Virus record (IMG/VR): IMGVR_UViG_3300044623_000784
Coordinates: 1 to 64,000 of that record
Strand: one strand, 5' to 3'
DNA from: a virus
DNA length: 64,000 nt
Position 1 is the first letter of the stretch. Every line of letters begins with the position of its first letter. The position numbers were made by a program, and so were the translations under genes. A model generated the notes under the pieces. The model was not told where the DNA came from. It did not search any database and saw only the letters and a program-made list of their open reading frames with translations. This document shows, one piece after another, positions 12,314 through 29,385 of this stretch.

Positions 12314-12742
12314 ATGAGTATATATGACTTGTCATTTATTGACAACTCTGGTAATGAAATAAAACTGGAAAGTTTTAAAGGTAAAAGCATATTGATAGTT
12401 AACACTGCAAGCCAGTGTGGATACACAAAACAATATGAAGACCTACAAAAGATCCAAAGCGACTCTGTTGTTGTAATTGGATTTCCATGTAATCAGTTTG
12501 GTAATCAAGAGCCAGGAACAACAGAAGAAATCAAAGCATTCTGCACAAACATCTATGGTATAACCTTTCCTATATCACAAAAGGTAGAGGTTAATGGTCC
12601 TAATGCACACGAGATATATAAGTACTGCAAAGACAGTGCTAACGTTACTAATATTGGTTGGAACTTTGAGAAATTCTTAGTATCTGTTGACGGATCAATT
12701 ACTCATTATCCTAGTTCACATCAAGTATCAGACATCGTTTGA
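12314..12742 (+). CDS. Glutathione peroxidase (thiol peroxidase type)
   Basis: 142 residues with all family blocks: NTASQCGYT (peroxidatic Cys 35), GFPCNQFGNQEPG (catalytic Gln) and GWNFEKFLV (catalytic Trp). Bacterial enzymes of this cysteine type usually reduce peroxides with thioredoxin, and a thioredoxin is encoded at 14242-14493. It lies 16 nt behind its diverged paralogue with an AGAAAGAAG ribosome site. Probable role: protection against host oxidative stress during infection. Confidence 0.85.
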   Translation: MSIYDLSFIDNSGNEIKLESFKGKSILIVNTASQCGYTKQYEDLQKIQSDSVVVIGFPCNQFGNQEPGTTEEIKAFCTNIYGITFPISQKVEVNGPNAHEIYKYCKDSANVTNIGWNFEKFLVSVDGSITHYPSSHQVSDIV

Positions 12743-13974: not shown

Positions 13975-14052
13975 GCACCAGTAGCCAAGTTGGTTAAGGC
14001 ACCGAACTCATAATTCGGCTATTCGTAGGTTCAAGTCCTACCTGGTGTACCA
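13975..14052 (+). tRNA. tRNA-Met (CAT), CCA encoded
   Basis: Acceptor GCACCAG with CTGGTGT, D stem GCC/GGC, anticodon stem CCGAA/TTCGG with loop CTCATAA, T stem GTAGG/CCTAC. CCA is encoded at 14050-14052. The three G-C pairs of an initiator anticodon stem are missing, so it is elongator Met or an Ile tRNA with modified CAT. Confidence 0.92.
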
Positions 14053-14053
14053 T

Positions 14054-14125
14054 ACCTCTGTAACTCAGCGGAAGAGTAGCGGACTTCTAATCCGTTTGTC
14101 GCAGGTTCGATTCCTGCCAGGGGTA
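14054..14125 (+). tRNA. tRNA-Arg (TCT)
   Basis: Acceptor ACCTCTG with CAGGGGT, anticodon stem GCGGA/TCCGT with loop CTTCTAA, T stem GCAGG/CCTGC. It reads AGA, a codon used freely by these AT-rich genes. It follows tRNA-Met after 1 nt, so both come from one precursor. Confidence 0.92.
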
Positions 14126-14142
14126 CATGGTATAATTATATT

Positions 14143-14247
14143 GTGACAATATAGTCGCTGTATCTTTGTCGGGAAACTTTTTTATAGCGTGTTGCAACAC
14201 TATATTGTCCTTAACTTAAAGTCCTGGGTATGACTTAAAAACTACCC
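14143..14247 (+). ncRNA. Promoter-driven structured small RNA ending in a pseudoknot
   Basis: TATAAT (14131-14136) predicts a start at about 14143. GACAATATAG (14145-14154) pairs perfectly with CTATATTGTC (14200-14209), enclosing a second stem CGCTGTA (14156-14162) with TATAGCG (14183-14189). The RNA ends with pseudoknot copy 6. The only open frame is GTG ACA ATA stop, so it is non-coding. It faces the convergent thioredoxin gene, whose stop it overlaps. Confidence 0.55.
14219..14247 (+). ncRNA. H-type pseudoknot element, copy 6
   Basis: Stem 1 is AAGTC (14219-14223) with GACTT (14232-14236). Stem 2 is GGGTA (14226-14230) with TACCC (14243-14247), a compensated change from the GAGTA/TACTC of copy 1. 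The linker is AAAAAC. No + strand gene follows, so it must be at a 3' end. Confidence 0.78.
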
Positions 14248-14493
14248 AAATATAGATCTTATAACAGATTCTGGCTTAACTCCGCCAAGCATATTATGAT
14301 ACTCTCCATCAATAAGTGCAATGAATGTTGGAACAGACTGAACTCTATACTCTCTGACTAACTCAGTCTCCGCATCTACGTCAACCTTTGTATATTTTAT
14401 ATCTGGGTTATCGTTAATAAACCTTTCAATGACTGGAGCCATACTCTTGCATGGGTTACACCAATCTGCTGTAAAATGTAAAAGTTCTTTCAT
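14242..14493 (-). CDS. Thioredoxin-like protein
   Basis: 83 residues. FTADWCNPCK carries the redox pair Cys12/Cys15, with SVPTF giving the cis-proline, so a small active thioredoxin is likely. It could reduce the peroxidase at 12314 or a host enzyme. The ATG overlaps the stop of the upstream 43-residue gene. It is the last gene of a short leftward operon. Confidence 0.85.
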   Translation of the reverse strand: MKELLHFTADWCNPCKSMAPVIERFINDNPDIKYTKVDVDAETELVREYRVQSVPTFIALIDGEYHNMLGGVKPESVIRSIFG

Positions 14494-14621
14494 GGCTTTG
14501 GCTTATGCTTTACTTCATAAGGGGCAATCTTAGACTTGATGCGACCATCTTTATATAGTCTAACAATCCATCCATCTTTAATCTGAACAGGGTTAAAGGC
14601 TGCTGCTTTTTTCTTTGGCAT
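14490..14621 (-). CDS. Small basic protein, 43 aa
   Basis: 43 residues, Lys-rich (MPKKKAAAFNPVQIKDGWIV). The start overlaps the previous stop (TAATG) and the end overlaps the thioredoxin ATG, so it is a coupled three-gene operon. Function unknown. Confidence 0.6.
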   Translation of the reverse strand: MPKKKAAAFNPVQIKDGWIVRLYKDGRIKSKIAPYEVKHKPKP

Positions 14622-15061
14622 TACTTTGCCACCTTAAATGGAGAATCAACCCAACTATCTGATTTGGCAACTGGGATACAGTTAGGCACTGGCTTTCCGT
14701 CTGCACCTGGTTTCATTCCTCTTTGTACATATCCATCCCAGCAAGGTGCTGCTTTGCCCATTTGTGCATCATACATAGCCATAGCAACTTCTGAATCTTC
14801 AGGCTCAACCATTAGTGGTGGGATCTGTACATACATAGACATTGCACATGCAGTGTATAGTCTTGTTGCTTCCCATAATCCGCTTTCTTCTTGTTCAAAT
14901 AGTTGAATCATTACCGCAGGATTTTCTGCACTTGCTTCCATATAATATTCTGTTTCTGGATTACCAAGAGCGCCTTCATACATAACATGTACTACTTGCC
15001 CTATGTGTGTATCTCCTTCTCCACCGTGGGAGGTCATTGCGAAATCGCCTTCTTTTAACAT
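14621..15061 (-). CDS. Hypothetical phage protein with C-W-x-G-Y motif, 146 aa
   Basis: A beta-rich N-terminal half (residues 1-75) is followed by a C-terminal tail containing CWDGYVQRGMKPG...VPNC. That Cys-Trp...Pro-Asn-Cys block recurs in many actinophage structural or protease-linked proteins, and its role is unknown to me. TATACT (15068-15073) lies 6 nt before the ATG, so the gene is leaderless. Confidence 0.6.
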   Translation of the reverse strand: MLKEGDFAMTSHGGEGDTHIGQVVHVMYEGALGNPETEYYMEASAENPAVMIQLFEQEESGLWEATRLYTACAMSMYVQIPPLMVEPEDSEVAMAMYDAQMGKAAPCWDGYVQRGMKPGADGKPVPNCIPVAKSDSWVDSPFKVAK

Positions 15062-15078
15062 ATTAATAGTATACCATA

Positions 15079-15345
15079 TTAACCAGCAAGCCTATTATGA
15101 GTCCTTATCCTATGGCAATTGGCACAAACCACCTCACACTTTTCGATCTCTTTCTTAATAGCCTTCCAGGAAAAACCATCGTGGATCATTCTGGATATGT
15201 TATATTTCTTATCTCTTACATGATCAAAGTCTAAGATTATGTGGTTACCAACACCACAGTCTACACAGCCAGAATCCTCTTTTATCTTAGCAAGCATCTT
15301 CTTATACTGCTGCTTATTATAATGGTCTAACTCTTTGTCAGTCAT
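15079..15345 (-). CDS. HNH endonuclease-like protein
   Basis: 88 residues. CVDCG and CANCH form the zinc-binding knuckles, with LDFDHVRDKKYNIS supplying the catalytic His and CHRIRTHNR closing the HNH core. It is a small free-standing HNH enzyme. TATAAT lies 7 nt before the ATG. Confidence 0.8.
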   Translation of the reverse strand: MTDKELDHYNKQQYKKMLAKIKEDSGCVDCGVGNHIILDFDHVRDKKYNISRMIHDGFSWKAIKKEIEKCEVVCANCHRIRTHNRLAG

Positions 15346-15373
15346 TGCTATTATTATACCGTGAAAATATTAA

Positions 15374-15458
15374 GGCCCCACACAGGCAATTCACCTGACT
15401 TGCGCCACGGTCTCTATCCAATGGGTAACTAATCCATCACTAAGGTCCTGTGTGGGAC
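15374..15458 (-). ncRNA. Promoter-driven structured small RNA with a 10 bp closing stem
   Basis: TATAAT (15465-15470) predicts a start at 15458. The first bases, CCCACACAGG, pair with CCTGTGTGGG at the end (within 15374-15386), closing an 85 nt RNA. An alternative local hairpin CAGG/CCTG competes for the same 3' arm. The GC stem is followed by a U-rich tail, as in an intrinsic terminator. No reading frame and no tRNA fold are seen. It lies between PstS and the HNH gene. Confidence 0.5.
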
Positions 15459-15473
15459 ACTTCTATTATACTG

Positions 15474-16517
15474 CTACTTTGAACTTATTTCTGCTACTCT
15501 TGCCTTTGAAAACTTGAGCATAGCACTTCTGATTGGAGAGTAGCCAAGATCTTCAGCCTTCTTGCCACAGGTATCAAGCATAAAGTTAAAGAACTTTTTA
15601 ACGGAATCATTTTTTGAGTTCTTCTCTTTGTATGCTATACCGTATGTGAATGTTGATATGTTATAGGATAGTTTATTAGGGTTCTTGTAATTAATTTTAA
15701 CTACGCCACTCTTGTCTGGGACAAAGTCTCCAAGGAATACTGACGCTGCACTCACTGTTGGCTGTATAAACCTTCCAGCCTCATTCTCAACAGAGACTGT
15801 CTTTAGTCCTCTTGCATATGATATCTCATTGTATCCAATAGATCCATTTGTAGTTCCTTGTACCATTGCAATTCCATGAGACCCAGAAGCGCTGGTCATA
15901 TAACTCTTAGATATATCTCCAGGGAATGCAGTACCAAAGTTTTTATTCCCTGGTTTGTTCCATATAGTTGGAGCAACTGCATTAAGGTATGAGGTAAAAA
16001 CTTCTGAAGTTCCAGAACCATCAACACGGTATACAACTCTAATCTTTGTTGCTGGTATCTTAGGTAGTTTTCCTGATATAAGGTTTTCTTTTAATATCTG
16101 TGGGTCGTTCCACATTGTTATTTGTCCCGCAAAAACTTTAGCAAGGGTATCTTTACTCATCTTGATAGTAACTTTATATCCATCAAGTTTGTAGATAATT
16201 CCAATTGGCCCTGCTACCAATGGAACATATACAAACTCTTTTGATGGCTTTACTTCTGTACCAGAGTAAGGAACATCTGACATAGCAAAGTCTGTTACTC
16301 CATTTGAAAACATATTCTTTCCAGCACCTGATCCAGATGCTCCATATACAACAGAATCTCCTGTTGATTTCATAAATTCGACCCTGCATCTGTCTATAAA
16401 GTTAGCAGCAAATGTGGATCCAGCACCTTGAAGGTTGTCAGCATGTGAAGGGGTAATAAAAAAAGCATTAGCAAATATGGCTAATGCTACTGGTAAAGCA
16501 ATGAATTTAAATTTCAT
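15474..16517 (-). CDS. pstS: Phosphate ABC transporter substrate-binding protein PstS
   Basis: 347 residues. The signal peptide is MKFKFIALPVALAIFANAFF...SHA. Phosphate-binding blocks follow: GAGSTFAANF, YGASGSGAGK, DFAMSD and GSGTSEVFTSYL. PstS captures phosphate outside the membrane for the PstCAB transporter, and phages that carry it are thought to boost phosphate uptake. No other pst gene is present. The start at 16517 is fixed by TATACT (16524-16529) 6 nt upstream; an in-frame extension to 16679 lies upstream of that promoter. Confidence 0.92.
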   Translation of the reverse strand: MKFKFIALPVALAIFANAFFITPSHADNLQGAGSTFAANFIDRCRVEFMKSTGDSVVYGASGSGAGKNMFSNGVTDFAMSDVPYSGTEVKPSKEFVYVPLVAGPIGIIYKLDGYKVTIKMSKDTLAKVFAGQITMWNDPQILKENLISGKLPKIPATKIRVVYRVDGSGTSEVFTSYLNAVAPTIWNKPGNKNFGTAFPGDISKSYMTSASGSHGIAMVQGTTNGSIGYNEISYARGLKTVSVENEAGRFIQPTVSAASVFLGDFVPDKSGVVKINYKNPNKLSYNISTFTYGIAYKEKNSKNDSVKKFFNFMLDTCGKKAEDLGYSPIRSAMLKFSKARVAEISSK

Positions 16518-16592
16518 ACTTACAGTATATATGACAAGGCTATAAACTTTTGTTATAATTGGTAAACTAAGAATTAAATTTAGATGAATAAT

Positions 16593-16618
16593 GAGCAGTT
16601 TATGGACTTGCTCAGGTC
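16593..16618 (-). ncRNA. H-type pseudoknot element, copy 7
   Basis: On the - strand, stem 1 is GAC (16616-16618) with GTC (16605-16607). Stem 2 is GAGCA (16609-16613) with TGCTC (16593-16597). Loop 1 is CT and the linker CATAAAC. It lies upstream of the PstS promoter, so it is outside the PstS leader. Confidence 0.72.
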
Positions 16619-16695
16619 TCCCAGGGTGCGACCCTGGCTTGTCCGTACTCAGCAATAAGGTTGCTAAAAGCAACTGCATGTATCATGACGGAATA
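16593..16695 (-). ncRNA. Structured small RNA ending in a pseudoknot
   Basis: TATAAT (16702-16707) follows directly on the Hsp20 stop codon and predicts a start near 16695. The RNA contains the hairpin GTTGCT/AGCAAC around 16660-16675 and a perfect CCAGGGT/ACCCTGG hairpin (about 16620-16636), then pseudoknot copy 7. The PstS promoter lies beyond its end. It may be an independent small RNA or the Hsp20 3' region. Confidence 0.5.
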
Positions 16696-16707
16696 CTATC
16701 TATTATA

Positions 16708-17124
16708 CTATTTAATTTTAATAGATTTTGGCTTTTTGTCTTCAGGAACAATGCGTACAACATTTACATGTAGCATACCATCCTTTAGTTCTGCAGAAGT
16801 TACTTCCATGTACTCTCCCAGTGCAAAAGATCTTACAAACTTTCTTCCTGCGATTCCCTTGTGAACTACCTCTGCATCTGTCACTTCAACAATCTCACCC
16901 TTGATGATCAGTGTTCCATTATCTACTGAAACATCAATATCGTCTTTTGAAAAACCAGCGACAGCCAGTGAAATCTTGTATGTATCTTCATCTAGTTTGA
17001 TTAGATCATACGGAGGGTATGACTGTGAGTTTGTTTTATGTGCTGTATTTAGGCGACTCAACTCTCTGTTGAAGCCAATAAAAAAAGGATCATTGAATAG
17101 ATCCATAGCGTACTTTGTTACCAT
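16708..17124 (-). CDS. Small heat-shock protein (Hsp20/IbpA-like)
   Basis: 138 residues. The alpha-crystallin domain spans about residues 38-130 (YPPYDLIKLDEDTYKISLAV, AGFSKDDIDV, GTLIIKGE), with a short basic tail. The start has GAAAGGGG 6 nt upstream and a 50 nt leader from TATAAT (17180-17185), so unlike many neighbours this message has a leader. Phage Hsp20 proteins are common in cyanophages and may aid virion protein folding. Confidence 0.9.
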   Translation of the reverse strand: MVTKYAMDLFNDPFFIGFNRELSRLNTAHKTNSQSYPPYDLIKLDEDTYKISLAVAGFSKDDIDVSVDNGTLIIKGEIVEVTDAEVVHKGIAGRKFVRSFALGEYMEVTSAELKDGMLHVNVVRIVPEDKKPKSIKIK

Positions 17125-17180
17125 GTTATTCCCCTTTCAAGCGAATAAGTTAATTCCCCCCATTTGGGCAGGTATAAATA

Positions 17181-18023
17181 TTATATCATATTGTATATAG
17201 ACTCAGCAATATGGATTTGTTGATGAAATCCCCAATGACCAGGGGGCCAATAGGCGTAGTCTGCTGCGTTATCAAAAAACTCATTATCAGAAAACTCTAA
17301 ATGGCATCCAATGTTTTTTGGTATTTTACTATTTAAGTAGGCGCTCTCAAAATATGTATCAGTAAAATCTTTAAAAGAGTATGGTTCTAAAGTTGAATCA
17401 TTATAATAGGTCCATAATAATTTTATGTTATTGGATTCGCAATATTGAATAAATATTTTTAAAAATAAAATATTATAAAAAATTCCAAATTCTTCGGGCA
17501 AAACATTTTCTGCCATATGGGGCTCTTTAGAAAACTTTTCAATTAATTTGTTTGAAAGCATTGCTTTTCCTATATTTTCTCTAGACTCTGAGTCATTGTC
17601 TTTTTTGTCATTCATTACTGTAAAATTTATTAAGGGAACCTCAATCCTTGCTATTGGGAATACTGCAAATATATATTCAGGATGGTGAAATTCTTTAAAA
17701 AACTGAAATGCTTTAATTATTTGTGCTTGCATTCCTTCTCCACCTTTTGCTAAATTAACATAATCTTTATTCATTTTTTCTGATATTAGGTAAGGCCATG
17801 TCAGTTCTATAGGCATTCCATGTCCTTCTGTTTGAGAGCATCCCAAAGTTAAAATTTTTTGATTGTTAAACTCATCACATCTATATCCTTGAGAGTTTAG
17901 TTTATACTCAATTAAAACAGAATCTGCTTCTATTTTAGGAATACCATTATTACTCATTTCTTTTAAAGATCTATTAACAAAAATATTTGGTATTGTCTTT
18001 GGTGTGTATTTTTTATTAATCAT
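17181..18023 (-). CDS. SGNH/GDSL hydrolase-like protein 1
   Basis: 280 residues. LTLGCSQTEG places the block I serine at 63, Gly in AKGGEG fits block II, and PPGHWGFHQQIH near the end gives the catalytic His. SGNH enzymes remove or transfer acyl groups on sugars and lipids. Two paralogues follow upstream (18105 and 20324) around a carbamoyltransferase. No signal peptide, so it acts inside the cell. AT-rich even for this phage, a sign of recent transfer. Confidence 0.7.
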   Translation of the reverse strand: MINKKYTPKTIPNIFVNRSLKEMSNNGIPKIEADSVLIEYKLNSQGYRCDEFNNQKILTLGCSQTEGHGMPIELTWPYLISEKMNKDYVNLAKGGEGMQAQIIKAFQFFKEFHHPEYIFAVFPIARIEVPLINFTVMNDKKDNDSESRENIGKAMLSNKLIEKFSKEPHMAENVLPEEFGIFYNILFLKIFIQYCESNNIKLLWTYYNDSTLEPYSFKDFTDTYFESAYLNSKIPKNIGCHLEFSDNEFFDNAADYAYWPPGHWGFHQQIHIAESIYNMI

Positions 18024-18043
18024 TAAACTATCCTATCACTCTA

Positions 18044-18097
18044 TTAGTAAATATATTTATCTTTAAATATTTTCTTTTTTTTAAACTTAAACAGCAT
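18044..18097 (-). CDS. Possible Lys/Tyr-rich microprotein, 17 aa
   Basis: A 17-codon frame with six consecutive basic or aromatic blocks (FKFKKKKIFKDKYIY). It sits just before an SGNH gene, as does the 27-residue frame at 21292-21375 of similar composition. It may be a leader peptide or chance in AT-rich DNA. Confidence 0.3.
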   Translation of the reverse strand: MLFKFKKKKIFKDKYIY

Positions 18098-18104
18098 GTA
18101 TAGC

Positions 18105-18944
18105 CTAACTTTTCTTATTATTTTTTTCATTTTCCCTCGCTTCGTAAAATTTTTCTGCCCAGTACCTATGGAATACCAGCCCTTTGTGTCCATCATTTTT
18201 GGTCAGGTTGTATTTAACGGTTTTTGTTTTATCTTCATGCTGTTCAAAAATTTTTTTTATATTTAACTCCATATTTTTTATATCTAAAGAAATAAATTTT
18301 TTAAATTCATATTCTTTAAAGATGTCTTCTTCATCACCAAACCATGTAGACCAAAATAGTTTTGTATTGGATGCAGAGCAAAATGATTCTAGCAGTCTCA
18401 AACATATCACTGAGTTTCCATGTGCATTTACAAACTCTGCATCCGTAAAGTTATTTTCATCCGCCCGAATATTGTTTAGAAAAAATGAGTTTTCAGTGTC
18501 AGCAGTATGTTTATGACTGTATAAAATAGTTCTATATGTTTCTGGAATTAAAAAATATATTTCATCTGGCACACCGAAGTTATCTACATACTGCATTAAT
18601 TTTAGAATTTGTATTGTTATTCCATCACCTATACTTGCAATATTATAATATCCACTGACGCTTTCTTTTTCTTTTATTTTTTTATAAAGGATGTATGCCC
18701 ATGCTTCGTCTAGCCCATGGTTAGATCCTTGTGTTTCAGAACACCCCATAAAAAGTATGTGCTTTCCGTTGTGTGTGTCTATAAAATTATCGCACCTAAA
18801 TCCAAAAGAGTTAAAATCATCAAGCATACTTTCTGGATAGTTTTTTCTAAAATCTAAATCAGTCTCACCCATTGTATTAAATATAAGATCTTTATTATTT
18901 AAAAATAAATCTTTAACTATCTTATGATATAATCTTTTTGTCAT
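18105..18944 (-). CDS. SGNH/GDSL hydrolase-like protein 2
   Basis: 279 residues. LFMGCSETQG carries the block I serine at 69, and DGHKGLVFH near the end carries the His. The middle is poorly conserved with the two paralogues. The start overlaps the end of the carbamoyltransferase gene by 23 nt, so the two are co-translated. Substrate unknown. Confidence 0.65.
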   Translation of the reverse strand: MTKRLYHKIVKDLFLNNKDLIFNTMGETDLDFRKNYPESMLDDFNSFGFRCDNFIDTHNGKHILFMGCSETQGSNHGLDEAWAYILYKKIKEKESVSGYYNIASIGDGITIQILKLMQYVDNFGVPDEIYFLIPETYRTILYSHKHTADTENSFFLNNIRADENNFTDAEFVNAHGNSVICLRLLESFCSASNTKLFWSTWFGDEEDIFKEYEFKKFISLDIKNMELNIKKIFEQHEDKTKTVKYNLTKNDGHKGLVFHRYWAEKFYEARENEKNNKKS

Positions 18945-20343
18945 AGTTTAACTCCCAACTACCTATATCATGTTCATCATTTAGTAGTGGTTGCCCTTTA
19001 ATGTTTAAACTAGTATTAAGAAGTATCGGAACACCAGTTTGTAAATAAAATTTATTCAAAACCCTGTATAGCCCTGGGTGCTGTTCTTTTGTAACTGTTT
19101 GAACTCTTGATGTGCCGTCTGCGTGTACCACAGAGGGGATCTTGTCAGGCTGCAGGCACTTAACTGTGTACTGCATATAAGGACTCTCAAAGTCCATATC
19201 AAACCATTTGGAGGCATGCTCTGCCATAACTACTGGGGCAAAGGGTCTAAAAAGTTCTCTCTGTTTAATTAGATTTACCTTGTCTTTAATTGATGGATCT
19301 CTTGGGTCCGCAAGTATACTTCTATTTCCTAATGCTCTTGGGCCATACTCTGCTCTTCCTGTTGCTACTGCTACGATTCCGTCTTTCAATATGCCGTCCA
19401 AAATTTTCTGAACAGGGTACTCTCCACCAAGGTCATAGCCAAGATAAGGAGTCTTCCAATCAAGATGCTTTCCATATAGGGCTGCTGATGCGCCTAAAGA
19501 ACTACCAGCATCACCAGGGTTAGGCATGATCCAAATCATATCAAATATTTTCCACAGCAGTGTATTTGCGGATGAGTTTAGTGCACATCCACCCATGAAT
19601 ACTAAATTATTTTTGCCAGTTAAACTTTTTGCCATACGCATGAATTGATTTAGCCTTTGCTCGTATACCATTTGTACTGCTGCTGCTATATCAAACTTAT
19701 CTTGTTCTGAAACCCAACCCCAGTCAGTTATTCCTTTATGAAAATTATATTTTTGTTTATCATAACTTGGGAAATATTCGTCTACTTTTTTATAATACTT
19801 TTGCCAGTCTCCATAGGCAGCCATCCCCATCATAATATATTCTTCTTGATTTGGCATTAAGCCTATTAGTTGTGTGAATGCTGAATAGAATAGTCCGAAA
19901 CTTACTGGATAGTTTTGTTTATACTTTAGTTTAATCTTGTCGCCTTCACCAACCCAAATTGTGGAGGTATTGTATTCACCCATAGCATCTAAAACAACAA
20001 TTACAGCATCGTTGAACAAACTCGTATAGTATCCTGCTGCTGCATGAGAATAGTGGTGGCTAAAGGATTTTCTAGGTATTCCTTCAATATTAAACTGTGG
20101 TTTCCAGTCTCCAGATCCACCCCTTAAAGCCAGTCTAGAGGCCTTTAGAAGAGGTTTCTCGTAGTATGCTATAGCATTAGGGGTGCCGTACTGCAAAGCA
20201 TTAGTGATTAAACTATCATTCACATACCAATCATTTTTTTGCTTACTATACCTTTCAGCATGTCCAGCAAAAAGTATCTCTCCATCTTTAATTAAAGAGA
20301 CAGATGCGTCGTGAGAGGTTTCGTTAATTCCAAGGATTATCAT
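18922..20343 (-). CDS. Carbamoyltransferase (NodU/TobZ family)
   Basis: 473 residues. GINETSHDAS opens the Kae1-like ATPase domain, SHHYSHAAAGY is the metal-binding histidine block, and VVLDAMGEYNT is the nucleotide site. FMGGCALNSSAN, then EYGPRALGNRSILADPR, then LLNTSLNIKGQPL belong to the YrdC-like C-terminal part. The family moves a carbamoyl group from carbamoyl phosphate to a hydroxyl of a sugar or antibiotic. The start at 20343 overlaps the SGNH gene upstream by 20 nt. With three SGNH proteins around it, a glycan-decorating cassette is likely. Confidence 0.88.
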   Translation of the reverse strand: MIILGINETSHDASVSLIKDGEILFAGHAERYSKQKNDWYVNDSLITNALQYGTPNAIAYYEKPLLKASRLALRGGSGDWKPQFNIEGIPRKSFSHHYSHAAAGYYTSLFNDAVIVVLDAMGEYNTSTIWVGEGDKIKLKYKQNYPVSFGLFYSAFTQLIGLMPNQEEYIMMGMAAYGDWQKYYKKVDEYFPSYDKQKYNFHKGITDWGWVSEQDKFDIAAAVQMVYEQRLNQFMRMAKSLTGKNNLVFMGGCALNSSANTLLWKIFDMIWIMPNPGDAGSSLGASAALYGKHLDWKTPYLGYDLGGEYPVQKILDGILKDGIVAVATGRAEYGPRALGNRSILADPRDPSIKDKVNLIKQRELFRPFAPVVMAEHASKWFDMDFESPYMQYTVKCLQPDKIPSVVHADGTSRVQTVTKEQHPGLYRVLNKFYLQTGVPILLNTSLNIKGQPLLNDEHDIGSWELNYDKKIIS

Positions 20344-21295
20344 TATCCAACTCTCTCTTAAATCGTTCTGCAATGTGTATGTGTTGATGAATACCTATGT
20401 GTTCTTTATCATGCCCTGTGTTCCAAACTGTTTTTATTTTATTTTCTTTAATATCCTTATGGCAAGAAAGATTTTCAAACTCAAGTTCATCAAAATTAAA
20501 TTCTTTAGGTTCTAAGTAGTTTGAGTATTCAGAAAAACTTTCTTTTAACATTTTTAAAAACAAATTTGTTGTGTGATTCCAAGAACTATATTTAAAATAA
20601 ATATTATTTTGTTTGCAGTATTCGTTTAGTAGTAAAATTGATTGAAGGTTTTTGTAAAGGGCTTGAGTAAATGGAATAACGTCTAAAGGACTATGAGGAA
20701 GAACACTTAACTTATTAACTTTGTGATCATCGGATGGTCTTAAAAACCAGTGTTGTACGAGTTCATGCTTGTTTAATGGGGTTGGCATCTCTATTTTATT
20801 ACTATCTACCCCTTCTATTCTTCCTAAGTCTGGGTATAATACTAACAAAACTTTTGGGTTTCCATTTTTTTGAAAGTGATGCATTAATCCCTTTAATATT
20901 GACTCTGCTCCCCAGCCACCCATGCCTAAGTTTAGGGCTTCTTTACCGTAAGAATCTGCAATTTGAAAACCCCATATATCCTTGTAAGATCCATCTTTAA
21001 CTTCTGGCTCTGTTATGTGATCTCCATGCGTCTGGGAACAGCCTGAAAAAACAAATTCGTAGTACTTGTTAAAGTCTTGGTCCATAGGTCTGTATCGGTA
21101 ATCTTCAAGTTGTTGATCAAAAGTAAAAAAACTTAAAGCCTTAGATTGAGTAGTTGAATGAGAGGCAAGAATGTCTTTTAACTCTTCCAGAAACAGGGAC
21201 ATCTCTTCATTGCTGTATTTATTTTTAGAGTCAACTGTAATACCTTGAAAAAACCTAGTTAAAAAATCAAAAAATCTTCTGTTTATTTCGTTCAA
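20324..21295 (-). CDS. SGNH/GDSL hydrolase-like protein 3
   Basis: 323 residues. FVFSGCSQTHGDH carries Ser87, LGMGGWGAESI is block II, and TGHDKEHIGIHQHIHIAERF holds the Asp-His pair. It is the largest of the three SGNH paralogues. It starts at a TTG overlapping the stop of a 27-residue frame, suggesting coupled translation. It precedes the carbamoyltransferase in the operon. Confidence 0.72.
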   Translation of the reverse strand: MNEINRRFFDFLTRFFQGITVDSKNKYSNEEMSLFLEELKDILASHSTTQSKALSFFTFDQQLEDYRYRPMDQDFNKYYEFVFSGCSQTHGDHITEPEVKDGSYKDIWGFQIADSYGKEALNLGMGGWGAESILKGLMHHFQKNGNPKVLLVLYPDLGRIEGVDSNKIEMPTPLNKHELVQHWFLRPSDDHKVNKLSVLPHSPLDVIPFTQALYKNLQSILLLNEYCKQNNIYFKYSSWNHTTNLFLKMLKESFSEYSNYLEPKEFNFDELEFENLSCHKDIKENKIKTVWNTGHDKEHIGIHQHIHIAERFKRELDNDNPWN

Positions 21296-21375
21296 TATAT
21301 AAACCTGTTGTCTTTCTTTTTAAAGATTTTTTTTATTTTATAATAAACTTTATACATTAAGTACTTTAGTATCAT
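21292..21375 (-). CDS. Lys/Tyr-rich microprotein, 27 aa
   Basis: 27 residues, strongly basic with many Tyr and Ile. It has a perfect AGGAG ribosome site 6 nt before the ATG and TATAAT about 20 nt further up. The stop overlaps the TTG start of SGNH 3. It could be a leader peptide that controls the cassette or a membrane-active peptide. Confidence 0.55.
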   Translation of the reverse strand: MILKYLMYKVYYKIKKIFKKKDNRFIY

Positions 21376-21405
21376 TTTTTCTCCTATTATTAAATTATAT
21401 CATAG

Positions 21406-21435
21406 AAAAGCAGGCCTGTAAAATAACAAGCCTGC
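21406..21435 (-). terminator. Intrinsic terminator
   Basis: On the - strand GCAGGCTTG pairs with CAGGCCTGC (21410-21435, nine pairs with one G-U), followed by TTTT. It separates the operon at 21451 and beyond from the SGNH cassette. Confidence 0.75.
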
Positions 21436-21450
21436 TAATCTTTAGGAAAA

Positions 21451-21750
21451 TTACTTTACCTGGTTAGTTGGTTTTCCTCCGCCAGATGACTTCTTTGCAG
21501 GAGCCTTCTTTGCGGTCTTCTTAACAACCTTAGCAGTCTTAACTGCCTTGTCTACATCTTCTGCAGATGGCATCTTGCCGAATGCAGGATCGTTAGGGTT
21601 GGCTGCTCTCAATACAACGGGCACAAGTGCTCCAAGTAGTGAGTATGCTAATGTCTGTGGATCTGTAACTCCAGAAGCATACATTGCTGTTGCTGCTCCA
21701 AGTACTGATCTTCCGTATGACGCTAGTGCGTTTTTGATTTGTTTATTCAT
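21451..21750 (-). CDS. Holin-like membrane protein with basic tail
   Basis: 99 residues: a polar N-terminus, two hydrophobic segments (about 13-28 and 34-48), then a lysine-rich tail KKTAKKAPAKKSSGGGK. That tail closely matches the end of the CHAP endolysin at 28002. A strong AGGAGG precedes the ATG. A holin or other lysis role is plausible; a structural role is the alternative. Confidence 0.5.
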   Translation of the reverse strand: MNKQIKNALASYGRSVLGAATAMYASGVTDPQTLAYSLLGALVPVVLRAANPNDPAFGKMPSAEDVDKAVKTAKVVKKTAKKAPAKKSSGGGKPTNQVK

Positions 21751-21760
21751 TTTATTCCTC

Positions 21761-21919
21761 CTAGGATATGAATTTTGTTAGTACTGTAAAACCAATCCAT
21801 AAACCAATAATTCCTGCGACTCCCGCAAAAACTGGTGGTGCTGGTACTGGCAATTTGAATGCAGCAAATACTACACCACATCCAAAACCTGTTAATACTG
21901 AAAGCATAATTTCTTTCAT
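21761..21919 (-). CDS. XapX domain membrane protein, 52 aa
   Basis: 52 residues. KEIMLSVLTGFGCGVVFAAF, then KLPVPAPPVFAGVAGIIGL, is the XapX/DUF1427 pattern: two short membrane helices joined by a proline hinge. The family function is unknown. It overlaps the upstream gene by ATGA and lies just ahead of the holin-like gene. Confidence 0.75.
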   Translation of the reverse strand: MKEIMLSVLTGFGCGVVFAAFKLPVPAPPVFAGVAGIIGLWIGFTVLTKFIS

Positions 21920-22329
21920 GCGTCTATTCTACCATAGTCATCTGGCAGGAGTTTTTTTAGTTCTTTGTACGCTCCTGATATTTTTTTTAAGGCAAAGTCA
22001 TGTGGAGTAATCATGCCATCTACTGCTGAGCCATATTTATCGTAGTGTTCGACCTGTGGACCAACCTCATCAATAAACAACTTTAGCCCAGACTGAACCT
22101 CTTCTATATACTGATATGCCCAATCACGAGAATCTGAAACAAATTTTAAAAATGCTTCGTTTGATTCTTCTTGATCTGTTTTATTTCCGTCGCTAATAGA
22201 CTGCTGCATAAGCAAAAGATTTAATGTGTTTGCCAAAATGATGCGGTTCTTTTTTATTTGAAACACATACAAAGATAAGAATAATAGAGTTAAGAATACA
22301 AATACTCCGACTAGAATTGACTCAATCAT
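21916..22329 (-). CDS. Hypothetical membrane-anchored protein, 137 aa
   Basis: One N-terminal membrane helix (residues 3-23), then a cytoplasmic helical domain with conserved-looking Asp/Trp/Tyr (SDSRDWAYQYIEEVQ). No family is recognised. Overlap with both neighbours puts it in the same operon as XapX. Confidence 0.6.
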   Translation of the reverse strand: MIESILVGVFVFLTLLFLSLYVFQIKKNRIILANTLNLLLMQQSISDGNKTDQEESNEAFLKFVSDSRDWAYQYIEEVQSGLKLFIDEVGPQVEHYDKYGSAVDGMITPHDFALKKISGAYKELKKLLPDDYGRIDA

Positions 22330-22565
22330 AGTTCTTTTCCACCTTCTCTTACCAACAAAACAATAGCACCATTATCTTCAAGTGCTTTTTTAACACGAAT
22401 CATGTACTCAATAGCCTGTCTCTTTAACTCAACAGTCTCCAAGGACATAAAGTCTTTCTCTTTTGCTTTTACTGTTATAAAATTATCATTATCTACAATT
22501 TCCAAACTAAAATTGTTTGGGGCATGCAAAGATCTAAACGCTCTTCTCATTGCATCTGTATACAT
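22326..22565 (-). CDS. Hypothetical protein, 79 aa
   Basis: A small alpha/beta protein (SLEIVDNDNFITVKAKE, then a long helix, then AIVLLVREGG). No known family. It overlaps the gene behind it by 4 nt and follows WhiB by 1 nt. Confidence 0.6.
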   Translation of the reverse strand: MYTDAMRRAFRSLHAPNNFSLEIVDNDNFITVKAKEKDFMSLETVELKRQAIEYMIRVKKALEDNGAIVLLVREGGKEL

Positions 22566-22566
22566 C

Positions 22567-22848
22567 TTACTCCATTGTTAATGATTGCCATGTCATTCCC
22601 CAGTCATCCTTGCTCTTGTGGCTAGAAAACTCTTTTGATATTTCACCATTCTCTAAGTATACACCACCCCAGACTCCCCACTCTTTTCCTGAAATTCCAA
22701 CAGAAAAGCAGTCTTTCCTTACTGGACAGGATGAACAAAGAGCATCAATTGCTGGTCTTAGTAGTTCATCTTCCTCATATTTATCAAAAAATAAGTTTGT
22801 ATCATAGTCTAAACAAACAGCATCATCTTTCCATTTAAACTTATTCAT
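22567..22848 (-). CDS. WhiB-family iron-sulfur transcriptional regulator
   Basis: 93 residues. Cysteines 12, 38, 41 and 47 have the WhiB spacing (C...CSSC-x5-C) for one 4Fe-4S cluster, followed by WGVWGGVY, the sigma-factor contact turn. WhiB proteins are essentially limited to Actinobacteria and their phages and bind the main sigma factor to change promoter choice. It probably retunes host transcription. The basic DNA-binding tail is weak here (SSHKSKDDW). Confidence 0.9.
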   Translation of the reverse strand: MNKFKWKDDAVCLDYDTNLFFDKYEEDELLRPAIDALCSSCPVRKDCFSVGISGKEWGVWGGVYLENGEISKEFSSHKSKDDWGMTWQSLTME

Positions 22849-23061
22849 TTAGATCACATACTTATCAGGGATTTCCCATCCTTGGCTAGAAGGAATAAAC
22901 TCTTTTTTCATTTGCCACTTGTTATTTTTATAGATACCAAATTTTGAGTAGTAGGCTTTCTCTGAGGGAAATGTCTCAACTACTGTCCAACCATCCCATG
23001 ACAGTTGTCTATTCTTGTTTACTATTGACTCCATAGTGTCTAAAGAATTAACTAATTTCAT
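22849..23061 (-). CDS. Hypothetical protein, 70 aa
   Basis: Rich in Trp, Lys and Ser (LSWDGWTVVETFPSEKAYYS). The ATG at 23061 with GGAAAGA upstream is preferred to a TTG at 23088. The promoter at 23110-23138 drives it and WhiB. Function unknown. Confidence 0.55.
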   Translation of the reverse strand: MKLVNSLDTMESIVNKNRQLSWDGWTVVETFPSEKAYYSKFGIYKNNKWQMKKEFIPSSQGWEIPDKYVI

Positions 23062-23109
23062 AATCTTTCCATTCTGTTTGTGTGCCAAGGCACATTTGAA
23101 GCATACTAA

Positions 23110-23138
23110 ATTCTAACATATATGACAGAGTTTGTCAA
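23110..23138 (-). promoter_or_regulatory. Sigma70-type promoter of the WhiB operon
   Basis: On the - strand, TTGACA (23133-23138), 17 bp, TAGAAT (23110-23115). A GTGCC/GGCAC hairpin lies in the leader before the first gene. Confidence 0.7.
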
Positions 23139-23144
23139 GAACTA

Positions 23145-23495
23145 TTAGAATGTGTATACGTTTGTGTTTATATTATTTAGTTTTGATATGTGAACCATCT
23201 TTGACACTGGCTCTTTTGGATTAGACAAAAAGGCAAAGTGGTTTAGTTCAGATATGTTTTCTTCTAGCCATTGAGGAGTCACTTTAATAAACTTAATAGA
23301 CTTACCTCTTGACTTCATTCCTTTTTCAGATAGGTTTGCAAACTCCATAGCCATCATATTAATATTGTTTGGACCCGCAGAATATATATGAAAGTTTTTG
23401 TCCTCTTCTAGCAATTCAGAAAGGGCAACGGCCATCGATCTAAGGAATACATTATAGTTGTCAAAACTACTCGTCCCCTGAACCCCTACTATCAT
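23145..23495 (-). CDS. Rossmann/SLOG-like protein, 116 aa
   Basis: The start MIVGVQGTSSF and the later FHIYSAGPNNINMMAMEFA resemble the nucleotide-binding turns of SLOG (YpsA/DprA-like) proteins, which bind nucleotides or modified nucleotides. The match is by eye and short. It overlaps the upstream membrane-protein gene by 29 nt. Confidence 0.45.
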   Translation of the reverse strand: MIVGVQGTSSFDNYNVFLRSMAVALSELLEEDKNFHIYSAGPNNINMMAMEFANLSEKGMKSRGKSIKFIKVTPQWLEENISELNHFAFLSNPKEPVSKMVHISKLNNINTNVYTF

Positions 23496-23883
23496 CGTTA
23501 ATCCCTTCTCTTAATCTATCCATTATGAATAGCATTTTATCTAATTGTACCTTATCCATGTGTATTGTGTCAACTTGTTCCGCAGACTCCTTGTCAATAA
23601 GTTCATTGACCAGTGGCGCTTTGTAAAAAATATTATCTTTAATCCAGTACGCACTGTTATCAAAAATAATTACTTTTATATTAGTTTTATCGTAATGTAT
23701 TTTAGACTGTGACCTAGTTTTTAATTTTCTAGATTTACTCTTTCCATTGCTATACCTATACTGAAGCATTGACTGGCTAATAATTGGAGTGCTGATATTA
23801 TTTGCTTTGACTCTTAAAATATAAACATAAACAAGCAAGGCAAGTATTACTGTTGTCCCGATAGCACCATACAAATTATTCAT
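23467..23883 (-). CDS. Hypothetical membrane-anchored protein, 138 aa
   Basis: An N-terminal membrane helix (5-24) is followed by a basic stretch (SKSRKLKTRSQSK) and a C-terminal acidic helix. GGGAG precedes the ATG, with TATACT further up. No family recognised. Confidence 0.6.
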   Translation of the reverse strand: MNNLYGAIGTTVILALLVYVYILRVKANNISTPIISQSMLQYRYSNGKSKSRKLKTRSQSKIHYDKTNIKVIIFDNSAYWIKDNIFYKAPLVNELIDKESAEQVDTIHMDKVQLDKMLFIMDRLREGINDDSRGSGDE

Positions 23884-23907
23884 AAAGACTCCCAGGTATT
23901 TAGTATA

Positions 23908-24237
23908 TCATTTTTTATTAGAAAGAGCCTTTATTATCTCTTCGATAACAACTCTTTGATCTTTGTCTAAAGACTTTATTGCATCTAGGTCAAGGCCTTT
24001 TGGACCTATCTTAACCAGAGGATCTTCTTCTGTTATATCCATGTCGATAAAACCTTTTTCCCAAAGTTTTAAAGTAACTTTTGAAAAGTATATAGAAAGA
24101 TCATCACTAAGTTTAGAGTCTAACTCCTTAAGCCTATCTGTTGGCCTGTAAAGGGGTTCCCCAGTCTCAGAGTCAGTACCTGCAAACTCTAGCCCACCAT
24201 TAAGTATTAACTTATCTACGGAATCAAACTCATCCAC
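23908..24237 (-). CDS. Hypothetical phage protein, 109 aa
   Basis: Starts at GTG. Helical and acidic, with a conserved-looking block GFIDMDITEEDPLVKIGP. It lies directly after the nuclease gene with 2 nt spacing. Function unknown. Confidence 0.6.
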   Translation of the reverse strand: MDEFDSVDKLILNGGLEFAGTDSETGEPLYRPTDRLKELDSKLSDDLSIYFSKVTLKLWEKGFIDMDITEEDPLVKIGPKGLDLDAIKSLDKDQRVVIEEIIKALSNKK

Positions 24238-24239
24238 GG

Positions 24240-24647
24240 TTATTTCCCAGACTTCTTTCTGGCCTTTGCTAGTTGATCAAAATCTTTAACCTTAGTGTCA
24301 CCTAGATATCCCCAGGCATAGCCATCATTGATCATCATGTCGTTAAGAGATACGGTATCTCCATTAATATATACCCAGCCTAAAATGCGACCATACTTCT
24401 CAGATGAATCCATCTTCTCAGTCTTAATAATAACAGACTTGGCATCTTTTAGAGCCTTCTTTAGGTACTCTTTAGACTCAAGACCAAGAGTCTTTTCTTT
24501 AAGGTCTTTCGTACGAGACTCAGGGGTATCAATACCAGCCAATCTCACACGGGATTGAAACAAAATATCAAACCCTAAATCAATAAGAACGTCAATGGTA
24601 TCTCCATCTACTACGTTCTCTACTTTTCTTACATAGTATTCATACAT
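24240..24647 (-). CDS. Staphylococcal-nuclease-like (thermonuclease) protein
   Basis: 135 residues. VVDGDTIDVLIDLGF, then RVRLAGIDTPESR, then EKYGRILGWVYI, matches the SNase OB-fold. The calcium-binding Asp and catalytic Arg/Glu are present (R in RVRL, E in PESR, R in YGRI). No signal peptide, so it acts in the cytoplasm, for example on host DNA. Confidence 0.85.
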   Translation of the reverse strand: MYEYYVRKVENVVDGDTIDVLIDLGFDILFQSRVRLAGIDTPESRTKDLKEKTLGLESKEYLKKALKDAKSVIIKTEKMDSSEKYGRILGWVYINGDTVSLNDMMINDGYAWGYLGDTKVKDFDQLAKARKKSGK

Positions 24648-25446
24648 TTGTAGCCTCCTTGTTTTTTACAAAATTGTAAACATCTAAGTCTATACTGTTT
24701 AACTCTAGGACTCTGTCCTTTTCTCCTTGAGTTAACAAGTTTACAAAGTAATCAGACGAAACTTTTTCTTTATTTAACTCAGATGGTCCAACATTAATCT
24801 TAGTATTAAGATCAAAGTTTATCTCAATGCCGTGGTTTAATAGGAACCAGTCTTTAATTTTACCACAGAACACACCTATGTTATCAACTGTGTTTACGAT
24901 TTTAAAACTATTTATATTCTCAATTGCATTAGTTAGAGATGTATTTTCATTTCCAACAAACCAATCAAACCCATAACCTTCATGATACTTCTTCATCATT
25001 TCGGCTCTATGCTTTGTGTAAAAAGACTCTGCATCCCAAGATCTTGGATCAGCAGAGTTACAAATAAATCTACTCTGATAGTTGTTATGAATTAAAAAAT
25101 TATTATCTTCAAACAAATAATATAAAAACTTTTCCTTGTTATCTTTTCTTTCCATGTACTCTGGCCTGTCTTGCAGATATCTAGGATATATAAAATTAAA
25201 ATAACTTGCTCTTGCTTCTACTGGTTCTCTTACTACCGTTGCAGTATCCACATCTTTTAAAAATTCTATGGGGTATGTTCCTCCATGAGCAGAAATGTAG
25301 ATTTTTGAATCTAAAAACTCATTACTGTTTGGAAAGTATGTACTAACATAAGATAAAATATCATTATTTATACTATTTTTTATATTATGAGAAATAAATT
25401 TTCCAGCAGTTTTTGGTATATGTAAAAAGTATAACTGCTTATTCAT
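24640..25446 (-). CDS. Sulfotransferase family protein
   Basis: 268 residues. FLHIPKTAGKFIS near the start is the PAPS-binding loop, and ATVVREPVEARASYF is the 3'-phosphate motif. This is a cytosolic sulfotransferase of the type that acts on glycans. The start at 25446 has GGGGGAGAAA upstream and follows the DUF2061 stop by 2 nt. The APS-kinase fusion in the same operon could supply its donor. Confidence 0.8.
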   Translation of the reverse strand: MNKQLYFLHIPKTAGKFISHNIKNSINNDILSYVSTYFPNSNEFLDSKIYISAHGGTYPIEFLKDVDTATVVREPVEARASYFNFIYPRYLQDRPEYMERKDNKEKFLYYLFEDNNFLIHNNYQSRFICNSADPRSWDAESFYTKHRAEMMKKYHEGYGFDWFVGNENTSLTNAIENINSFKIVNTVDNIGVFCGKIKDWFLLNHGIEINFDLNTKINVGPSELNKEKVSSDYFVNLLTQGEKDRVLELNSIDLDVYNFVKNKEATNV

Positions 25447-25448
25447 GT

Positions 25449-25652
25449 TTATTTTCTCCCCCATTGTATATAGTTCCACCCACGCTCATGTGCGTAGTAG
25501 ATAAATACTTTAACTACCGTTTCCCAAAACGCAATCGTTACTGAGAGCGAAGCGTTCTTTGTTATAACATAAGCAACCGCAACAGAGGAGAGTGTTCCCC
25601 ATATGCGATAACTAAGTGCCTTAGCAAACGATCTTGCTCTGGTTACTGTCAT
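25449..25652 (-). CDS. DUF2061 membrane protein 1
   Basis: 67 residues. RSFAKALSYRIWGTLSSVAV, then two membrane helices and YYAHERGWNYIQWG at the end, is the DUF2061 pattern. Its start overlaps the stop of a second DUF2061 gene (ATGA). The family function is unknown; it is common in cyanobacterial and marine phages and bacteria. Confidence 0.8.
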   Translation of the reverse strand: MTVTRARSFAKALSYRIWGTLSSVAVAYVITKNASLSVTIAFWETVVKVFIYYAHERGWNYIQWGRK

Positions 25653-25855
25653 TCCTTGCCCCACTTGACAGCATTCCAAATTCTTTCATGATAATAGTAT
25701 GCCACAAAATTAACCCCATTGGTTATTAGTGTAGCAATAGTAGCCAGACTAATATCTTCGCTCAAAGCATAAAGAGTTACAAACCCTGAAACCATTGCGA
25801 CAACTCTCCATGTTAAAGACTTAACAAGTGATCTACTTTTCTTTACGCTCATCAT
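25649..25855 (-). CDS. DUF2061 membrane protein 2
   Basis: 68 residues. KSRSLVKSLTWRVVAMVSGF, then a second helix and YYYHERIWNAVKWG. It is paralogous to the gene after it. Together with the gene at 27784 there are three DUF2061 genes within 2.5 kb; they may form hetero-oligomers. Confidence 0.8.
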   Translation of the reverse strand: MMSVKKSRSLVKSLTWRVVAMVSGFVTLYALSEDISLATIATLITNGVNFVAYYYHERIWNAVKWGKE

Positions 25856-25970
25856 TATCCTTAAACATTGACGCTATAATTCTTTCATCTGCAGCATTGA
25901 TTGCTTCCCCAGATTTTTCTATCTGTCTAAAGGCCCAACTGCTTGCGTTTTTCAGTAGCCGAAATAGCAT
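25833..25970 (-). CDS. Overlapping small protein, 45 aa
   Basis: A 45-codon frame that starts inside the end of the APS-kinase fusion (44 nt overlap) and ends inside the DUF2061 gene (23 nt overlap), bridging the gap between them. It is helical (FRQIEKSGEAINAADERII). It fills the only gap in an otherwise gapless operon, which favours it being real. Confidence 0.45.
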   Translation of the reverse strand: MLFRLLKNASSWAFRQIEKSGEAINAADERIIASMFKDNDERKEK

Positions 25971-26685
25971 GAATGTCTGCCCCCAAATCTACTTGTTCAA
26001 TCTTGTATCCAACATCTCTACCATATACAATGTTGGTAATGTTTGGTAGTCTTAATACTAATGCACCATCCATAAATTCATCCTTGGCAATATATTCTTT
26101 TACCTGATCGAACTTAAGTGGATCTTTCTCGCTTGTATTGTATGTATTACGTACTCCCAGCAAAACCTGCTCTGTTCTCTTCCCTGCCTCTTTGTAAAGA
26201 GCGTGATGTCCTTCATGCCATGGCTGATATCTGCCCAGCATAAGGGTTGTAGGGGCTGTCCAGTCGTGTAACTGGCAAGCAGCAATGATAAGGTCAGCCT
26301 CTTCTTCTACTGTCATCCCACAGGGGATTCTGACATCGCATGACTCTGGGTCTTCCCACATCTTGTTTGTGTCTTCAAATCTTCCAGACTCAATTCTGTC
26401 TACCCAAATTAAAATATCTGGCTTGCCAAATGCTGCACGAGTCAAGTCGGTAGGGCACACAAAGTCAACTATCACTGGAGCAACTCCCTGCTTAGCAATA
26501 AGTCTTGCCATGTCCCCCATACGTCTTGCCTGTTCAATTCTATCTTCAGGGCTAAAACCTAAGTCTGAGTTTACTGTTGCACGGACCTCATCTGCATTAA
26601 GGTGAATGGCGTTAATTCTTTCTTTGAGTGCCTTGGCCAACTCTGTCTTACCAGCACCTGGCAGACCAATAATCTGAATAATCAT
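25927..26685 (-). CDS. APS kinase-like / nucleotidyltransferase fusion
   Basis: 252 residues. The N-terminal half has the P-loop GLPGAGKT (7-14), HLNADEVRATVN, and VIVDFVCPT, as in adenylylsulfate kinase. The C-terminal half (from about 150) has LGRYQPWHEGH, an HxGH nucleotidyltransferase site of the NMNAT/cytidylyltransferase type. ATP sulfurylase also uses an HxxH fold, but this motif fits the simpler family better. It may make PAPS or a related nucleotide for the sulfotransferase in the same operon. Confidence 0.75.
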   Translation of the reverse strand: MIIQIIGLPGAGKTELAKALKERINAIHLNADEVRATVNSDLGFSPEDRIEQARRMGDMARLIAKQGVAPVIVDFVCPTDLTRAAFGKPDILIWVDRIESGRFEDTNKMWEDPESCDVRIPCGMTVEEEADLIIAACQLHDWTAPTTLMLGRYQPWHEGHHALYKEAGKRTEQVLLGVRNTYNTSEKDPLKFDQVKEYIAKDEFMDGALVLRLPNITNIVYGRDVGYKIEQVDLGADIHAISATEKRKQLGL

Positions 26686-27245
26686 TCTTCACCTATCTCT
26701 GTGTTTGGCATAATGTCAATTAACAAATGCACTCTGTCAATTTTGCTACTGTTTTCTACTGAGTGTACTCTTGAGTTGTTAATCTCCCAGCATTCTCCTT
26801 CTGACATGTTAATTTTTTCTGATCCAACAGTAAAAAAAGTCTGGTCTGATGTAATAATTGGTATGTGATGCCTTCTTGAGGAAAGCAAATACTCACCACT
26901 ATCAGAATGTGCAGAAATATTATGTCCTGCTTTTAATTTTATAAAAAGAACATTGCTCCTAATTCCATTATGCTTTAGTTCCAAGTCTTTAATAATTGGA
27001 TTAATCATGTCAAGTAGTGTTTTGTCATTGCTTTTTTCTTCAACAACAAGAGGTTCTCCTTGTTTCCAAGCAAGATTTGTTTTGTATACAAAGTAAGAAT
27101 TAGTGTCTTTGTGTGCTTGGAAAATATCTTGTCTTGATGTATCAATAAACCATTCATCAGAAAAATTATTAATATATTTTTGGATTGATGATATATCATA
27201 GTTTCCAAAAAAATTAAAGTTAAAGTTTTCTGACAACTTGTTCAT
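26682..27245 (-). CDS. Aspartyl/asparaginyl beta-hydroxylase-like protein
   Basis: 187 residues. LKAGHNISAHSDSGEYL holds His-x-Asp, RRHHIPI follows as in the PF05118 family, and SRVHSVENSS supplies the distal His before the final VHLLIDI strand. It is a 2OG-Fe oxygenase of the cupin type. It overlaps the APS-kinase gene by 4 nt. Substrate unknown. Confidence 0.75.
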   Translation of the reverse strand: MNKLSENFNFNFFGNYDISSIQKYINNFSDEWFIDTSRQDIFQAHKDTNSYFVYKTNLAWKQGEPLVVEEKSNDKTLLDMINPIIKDLELKHNGIRSNVLFIKLKAGHNISAHSDSGEYLLSSRRHHIPIITSDQTFFTVGSEKINMSEGECWEINNSRVHSVENSSKIDRVHLLIDIMPNTEIGEE

Positions 27246-27246
27246 T

Positions 27247-27477: not shown

Positions 27478-27487
27478 AGTATACTGC

Positions 27488-27673: not shown

Positions 27674-27676
27674 GCG

Positions 27677-28640: not shown

Positions 28641-28696
28641 GATTACCTCCTTATAGGTATCTTTATCTTATTATATCACAATAGGCGTTGCCCTGC

Positions 28697-29284: not shown

Positions 29285-29309
29285 TGTGTTCCTTTCGGTA
29301 GTTTTCCGC

Positions 29310-29380: not shown

Positions 29381-29385
29381 ATAGA

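Follow-up and report, generated by a model that had tools for sequence, protein, structure and literature searches.

A family of short basic peptides encoded beside carbamoyltransferase and SGNH-fold genes in aquatic phages

In the freshwater phage considered here, and in many other aquatic phages, a carbamoyltransferase (CT) is encoded together with esterase-like enzymes and, nearly always, a tiny basic peptide. The stretch analysed (the window) comprises 64,000 nucleotides, positions 1 to 64,000 of IMG/VR virus record IMGVR_UViG_3300044623_000784, which extends to 118,084 bases. Its minus strand carries a cassette of one CT, three SGNH-fold proteins (SGNH-A, SGNH-B and SGNH-C) and two members, mp1 and mp2, of what is apparently a phage gene family not described so far, the FIY micropeptides. 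The enzymes are of known kinds; what appears new is the family of micropeptides, paired almost obligately with CT and SGNH genes. A first-pass annotation of the same DNA had described an operon of one NodU/TobZ-type carbamoyltransferase and three diverged SGNH genes, all overlapping or adjacent, and this is borne out by Pfam and PHROG matches, a shared profile and a fold match. The leader peptides that it mentioned as a side detail are the most unusual part of the locus.

The FIY micropeptides and the genes beside them

Members of the family are about 25-45 amino acids long, have a net charge of about +9 and end in [FY]-[IT]-Y or KKDPFIY(K). The first of the two in the window, mp1 (MILKYLMYKVYYKIKKIFKKKDNRFIY; 21292..21375, minus strand), is preceded by an AGGAG Shine-Dalgarno sequence and its stop codon overlaps the start of SGNH-A (TTGA); mp2 (MKKIIRKVRLYMLFKFKKKKIFKDKYIY; 18044..18130, minus strand) starts within the end of SGNH-B. 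When K/R-rich micro open reading frames (micro-ORFs) with a Shine-Dalgarno sequence were gathered from the 80 closest CT loci, irrespective of their C-terminus, an [FY][ITVL]Y end was found on 27 of the 28 that adjoin an SGNH or CT gene versus 0 of the 35 lying elsewhere (Fisher 6e-17), and the Lys/Tyr-rich microframes that the first-pass annotation had placed before two of the SGNH genes are thus beyond chance. At least one FIY peptide is present in 66 of these 80 related loci.

A related tail, DPYIYEE, occurs in a marine virus (L086), and from this tail and a motif of marine phages a degenerate DNA pattern for KKDPFIY was built. Among the matches listed, 107 of 120 lie at most 3 residues from an ORF's end, these ORFs being mostly basic and 27-55 amino acids long, and a scrambled peptide of equal composition gave 9 matches, versus at least 120 for KKDPFIY. 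Two loci (L469 and L538) combine a KKRDPFIY tail with the freshwater type of stop/start overlap and a CT, and thereby join the marine and freshwater forms of the peptide. Bacterial genomes hardly ever carry the FIY family: in 84,980 bacterial and archaeal genomes the KKDPFIY pattern matched 86 times and only 4 of the matches were FIY peptides, all of them on contigs of marine bacterial metagenome-assembled genomes, which we suspect to be phage DNA. The KKDPFIYK tail also ends a Cys-rich protein of 82-89 amino acids in five loci (L095, L098, L123, L148 and L163), where the neighbouring genes, as read from sequence, look like virion genes; possibly the tail serves more widely as a tag at the C-terminus.

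The ratio of nonsynonymous to synonymous polymorphism (pN/pS) in the peptide frame is 0.17 for the marine and 0.25 for the freshwater peptides and exceeds 1 in both other frames, the pairs compared not being independent, and all synonymous codons are used at KKDPFIY. These patterns clearly point to reading frames under purifying selection, conserved as protein. They bear on the proposal that the micro-ORFs are leaders with an inert product, translated only to free the start site of the enzyme gene that follows. Stop and start codons do often overlap, by a single nucleotide in 29 of 55 junctions (the commonest arrangement), as such leaders might; but selection on the amino acids with free use of synonymous codons, the conserved C-terminus and the fusion of the tail to an SGNH protein described below all speak against it, as does the overlap of mp1 with SGNH-A, which leaves no space for a transcriptional attenuator between them. 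We regard this explanation as very improbable.

The pairing with enzyme genes is most directly seen in a blind search, in which a pattern of KKxxxFIY with its stop codon overlapping an ATG (TAATG) was collected from 102 loci, the CT and SGNH genes not being consulted. The match ends a basic micropeptide ORF in 53 of the 102. The next gene after these 53 peptide ORFs is a CT in 38 cases and an SGNH gene in 6, and a CT or SGNH gene is next or in the same locus for 52 of the 53, versus 0 of the 49 other matches; many of the loci are near-duplicates, and with identical tails collapsed the counts for the next gene become 23 CT, 5 SGNH and 5 other or short. The peptide loci found with KKDPFIY (107 among the matches listed) hold a CT in 67 cases and an SGNH gene in 37, compared with 0/120 for either in random loci of equal GC content, a contrast to be read as an upper bound because neither habitat nor type of phage was matched in this control. 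Marine phages with distant CTs show the association again, and the virus of a single cell (AG-345-D19) has an FIY peptide and two SGNH genes.

A family so widespread seems to have been overlooked so far, apparently because its genes are only 25-45 codons long and overlap annotated genes. Ten of the peptides searched against PHROGs gave nothing convincing (best E 0.018; very short queries score poorly), and tblastn of one marine peptide against isolate phages gave no match, although low-complexity filtering may hide the peptide. Nothing relevant was found in the open-access literature on the DPFIY tail or on the pairing of phage SGNH and carbamoyltransferase genes; large catalogues of small proteins (e.g. 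PMC11364881) may contain some FIY ORFs without comment. The near-exclusive link to CT and SGNH genes offers a direct handle on the common and unexplained phage genes annotated as "Nol-like carbamoyltransferase".

The carbamoyltransferase and the SGNH-fold proteins

The window CT (18922..20343, minus strand; 473 amino acids from the ATG at 20343, the longest ORF beginning at TTG 20373) overlaps SGNH-A. It matches PF16861 (6e-54) and PF02543 (2e-32), with Carbam_trans_N at 113 bits and Carbam_trans_C at 182 bits against curated cut-offs of 24 and 27 respectively, and it belongs to phrog_1601, "Nol-like carbamoyltransferase". It aligns with the NovN and GdmN chains across the catalytic motifs, and TobZ is also matched. 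By its sequence it is a TobZ/NodU-type enzyme: like TobZ, NodU, NovN and GdmN it has both domains and the HxxxH, GRxEYGPRALGNRS and RPFAPVV motifs, the roles of the HxxxH and carbamoyl-phosphate motif residues being presumed from what is known of TobZ. It differs from them in length (473 versus 576-702 amino acids in the solved relatives) and in being phage-borne and paired with micropeptides and SGNH genes.

The SGNH-fold proteins are SGNH-A (20324..21295, minus strand; 323 amino acids, TTG start), SGNH-B (18105..18944, minus strand; 279 amino acids, overlapping the end of the CT) and SGNH-C (17181..18023, minus strand; 280 amino acids). Each searched alone, they gave no convincing Pfam or PHROG match; one profile is common to all three, and identity to SGNH-C is 31% for SGNH-B and 27% for SGNH-A. 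The profile finds 105 members, spread over 63 of those 80 related CT loci, so that the co-occurrence elsewhere, proposed in the first-pass annotation as a check, is found there as well as in the marine phages. A tblastn search of isolate phages with two SGNH proteins gave no match. The AlphaFold2 model of SGNH-C (predicted local distance difference test score, pLDDT, 88.9) was compared with the PDB by VIA; the top match is CgnD (8a2n; Z 14.2), with TesA (Z 13.5) and carbohydrate esterases also matched, the structural matches being tied at Z 13-14.

Among 46 SGNH representatives the Ser, Asp and His are kept in 45, 46 and 45, respectively, and conservation covers the Ser of block I, the Gly of block II and the Asp/His of block V (G61, S63 and G95 in alignment A1). 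The block III Asn (GxND) is not conserved; P123 and R126 stand there instead (alignment A1), and in the marine SGNH class W84 and R89 (alignment A3). Because this Asn is missing, SGNH-A, SGNH-B and SGNH-C are called SGNH-fold proteins and not canonical SGNH hydrolases. They thus share with the SGNH/GDSL hydrolases (TesA, the CE2 and CE3 esterases, CgnD) the fold, the nucleophile Ser of block I, the block II Gly, the Asp and the His, but differ in having the GxND of block III replaced by P...R (freshwater) or W...R (marine), and in that nearly all the phage members are without a Pfam match.

Possible roles of the micropeptides

Comparison with close relatives shows that an SGNH gene and its peptide are gained and lost together. 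In alignments with the window, mp1 and SGNH-A are cleanly absent from their site in three relatives (L009, L032 and L037), SGNH-B and mp2 are cleanly absent in another (L015), and a unit of peptide and SGNH gene is cleanly inserted between the first peptide and the CT in L025 as compared with L012. The divergence of peptides and SGNH genes is correlated (Mantel r 0.61-0.66), and in L099 the tail forms the C-terminus of an SGNH protein, a natural fusion. That peptide and SGNH gene come and go together, are tightly coupled and in one case are fused suggests that the peptide acts as a subunit. We favour, tentatively and at somewhat less than even chances, the explanation that the FIY peptides serve as small adaptor (accessory) subunits for enzymes that tailor glycans or metabolites.

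The whole is a phage enzyme cassette in which a conserved CT is joined by SGNH-fold enzymes, fast-diverging and varying in number, and by FIY micropeptides dedicated to it. Through its basic N-terminal part the peptide would keep the enzyme at an anionic surface, of which the likeliest is the membrane's inner face, the place of synthesis of lipid-linked glycans; the docking contact with the enzyme, or with a shared partner, would be made by the conserved [FY]-[IT]-Y at the C-terminus. Binding to an anionic surface is suggested by the charge of the peptides and by the amphipathicity of the marine forms, which exceeds that of shuffles (z 5.5). From family knowledge, the targets would be hydroxyls on a glycan, or on a metabolite related to one, of the host surface or the virion, which the CT would carbamoylate and the SGNH enzymes acylate or deacylate. 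The set of SGNH genes differs between close relatives, as one would predict for a trait on which host range or superinfection exerts selection.

Several observations weigh against such a role. Shared ancestry alone could yield the correlated divergence, the model of the fusion protein leaves the tail without confident placement (pLDDT about 68-72) and does not reveal a binding position, and the freshwater peptides are no more amphipathic than shuffles (z 0.4). The isolate cyanophage and pelagiphage CT loci examined have no FIY peptide, so that a CT can work without one. Finally, a primase-like gene (as read from sequence) directly precedes the peptide in 40 of 93 marine cases, the CT usually lying within a few genes.

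This last arrangement, with a helicase-like gene nearby (also read from sequence) for many of the marine peptides, fits a different proposal, in which the CT would be a DNA-hypermodification enzyme acting on 5-hydroxymethylcytosine (5hmC) or a related base and the SGNH proteins and peptides would be accessories recruited to replication. Precedent exists in a metagenomic phage carbamoyltransferase that makes 5-carbamoyloxymethylcytosine and, like the window CT, is phage-borne and has the same Pfam domains (PMC8670742). The clade of 5hmC carbamoyltransferases, however, co-occurs with thymidylate-synthase homologues (PMC8670742), and no such homologue (PF00303) was found in the 118 kb record or in 14 related freshwater records; among 25 marine records it was found in 3 and not in the other 22, and any of these records may be incomplete. 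Hydroxymethyl bases could arise by another route, but the missing homologue disfavours DNA carbamoylation, which we consider improbable. The glycan-modification pathway put forward by the first-pass annotation is supported in part: decoration of sugars or metabolites fits the enzyme families, and the hypermodified-DNA branch lacks support. The TobZ residues W408, G421 and R423 were considered as a marker of DNA modification and left unused, the source not naming the states that mark the modified clade.

The main rival to the accessory-subunit explanation takes the peptides as the substrate of a phage pathway resembling those for ribosomally synthesized and post-translationally modified peptides (RiPPs), such as crocagin. 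Crocagin inhibits the regulator CsrA. The basic N-terminal part would be the leader and the C-terminal aromatic residues the core, and the peptide would be modified by the CT, by an SGNH protein acting as leader peptidase and by nearby 2-oxoglutarate (2OG) oxygenases. In crocagin biosynthesis the precursor CgnA, which has an 18-residue Lys/Arg-rich leader and carries Tyr20 and Trp21 in its C-terminal core, is cleaved by CgnD, a putative esterase, and is acted on by CgnI, a carbamoyltransferase (PMC10070186); in another RiPP a precursor-peptide lysine is carbamoylated by a NodU-like carbamoyltransferase (PMC13174530). The phage loci resemble that of crocagin in combining a carbamoyltransferase and an oxygenase with a hydrolase of the SGNH fold (PMC10070186), and their short basic peptide with its aromatic end is similar in kind to CgnA though different in its core, the 2OG-oxygenase family being present in 47 of the 80 related loci; the first place of CgnD among the structural matches of SGNH-C and the tail being the most conserved part of the peptide point the same way. 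That place, however, is tied with ordinary thioesterases, and sequence search does not find CgnD. The phage peptides end in [FY][IT]Y(K), the crocagin core in Tyr-Trp, and marine tails mostly carry an extra terminal K, H, D or E. The systems considered here are also phage-borne, with several peptides and SGNH genes per locus; gain and loss of the peptide with single SGNH genes suits a subunit better than a shared substrate. We judge a substrate role unlikely, and slightly less likely still its fuller form, in which CT, SGNH peptidase and oxygenases in aquatic phages would turn FIY precursors into a host-acting modified peptide.

The strong positive charge, the aromatic content, the amphipathicity of the marine forms and the presence of the peptides in phages but almost never in bacterial genomes would also suit membrane-active host-takeover or antimicrobial peptides, coupled only incidentally to surface-modification genes. 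A general host toxin, however, needs neither to travel with individual SGNH genes nor to be fused to one, and a single C-terminal tripeptide common to phages of different habitats would be unexpected; this we find as improbable as a role in DNA modification. If the peptide is a subunit, as we prefer, it has so far been missing from the annotation of phage carbamoyltransferases; a substrate role would mean that modified peptides are made by phages.

Locus layout and neighbouring genes

The minus-strand gene order is mp1, SGNH-A, CT, SGNH-B, mp2, SGNH-C, the ORFs overlapping or adjoining throughout. Just upstream of mp1 lie a promoter-like site (TTTACA-17-TATAAT; 21394..21422, minus strand; 11/12, with TG before the second hexamer) and a terminator-like hairpin (21409..21436, minus strand) ending the preceding gene, both consensus matches only; mp1 is therefore probably the first gene of the operon. 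The promoter-like site is the best-scoring in the region, the total number of such sites being near the shuffled expectation. Rfam over 14000-30000 gave tRNAs only. The record is probably that of an actinobacterial phage, judged from its gene content: it has a WhiB-like gene (22567-22848, assigned by reading the sequence) together with DNA polymerase, DnaB helicase, UvsX, terminase and tail genes.

Adjoining the cassette are a PstS-like gene (15474-16679) and an HSP20-like gene (16708-17124), both read from sequence, of which relatives recur among the related loci; in cyanophage P-SSM2 hsp20 likewise lies near nol. Heptose genes adjoin the CT of a cyanophage. In a second, distant CT lineage (L131, L141, L156 and L178) the peptide lies downstream of the CT, in L131 with an adenosine 5'-phosphosulfate (APS)-kinase-like gene directly after it, and in another marine relative (L452) a DegT-type aminotransferase adjoins the peptide, both genes again being read from sequence.

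Elsewhere in the window there are oxygenase-like genes at 6844-7350, 10805-11488 and 26682-27245 (JmjC_2, 2OG-FeII_Oxy_3 and Asp/Asn beta-hydroxylase, respectively), and two neighbouring genes (11509-12297 and 12314-12742) have glutathione peroxidase matches. A subtilase gene (PF00082; 29417-30295) lies 9 kb from the cassette and may be unrelated to it; fusion of an S8/S53 peptidase with a carbamoyltransferase of the NodU-like kind has been reported (PMC13174530). Of the further glycan-related genes named in the first-pass annotation, the GT32-like one is recovered as a glycosyltransferase (8363-9004; PF04488), no FkbM-like gene appeared among the window proteins scanned, the scan not being exhaustive, and the sulfotransferase has a match at 24640-25479 (phrog_3347), a weak one (E 0.0025). 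Near the latter is an APS-kinase/cytidylyltransferase-like gene (25927-26685; PF01583, phrog_10255), and the pair suggests sulfate transfer.

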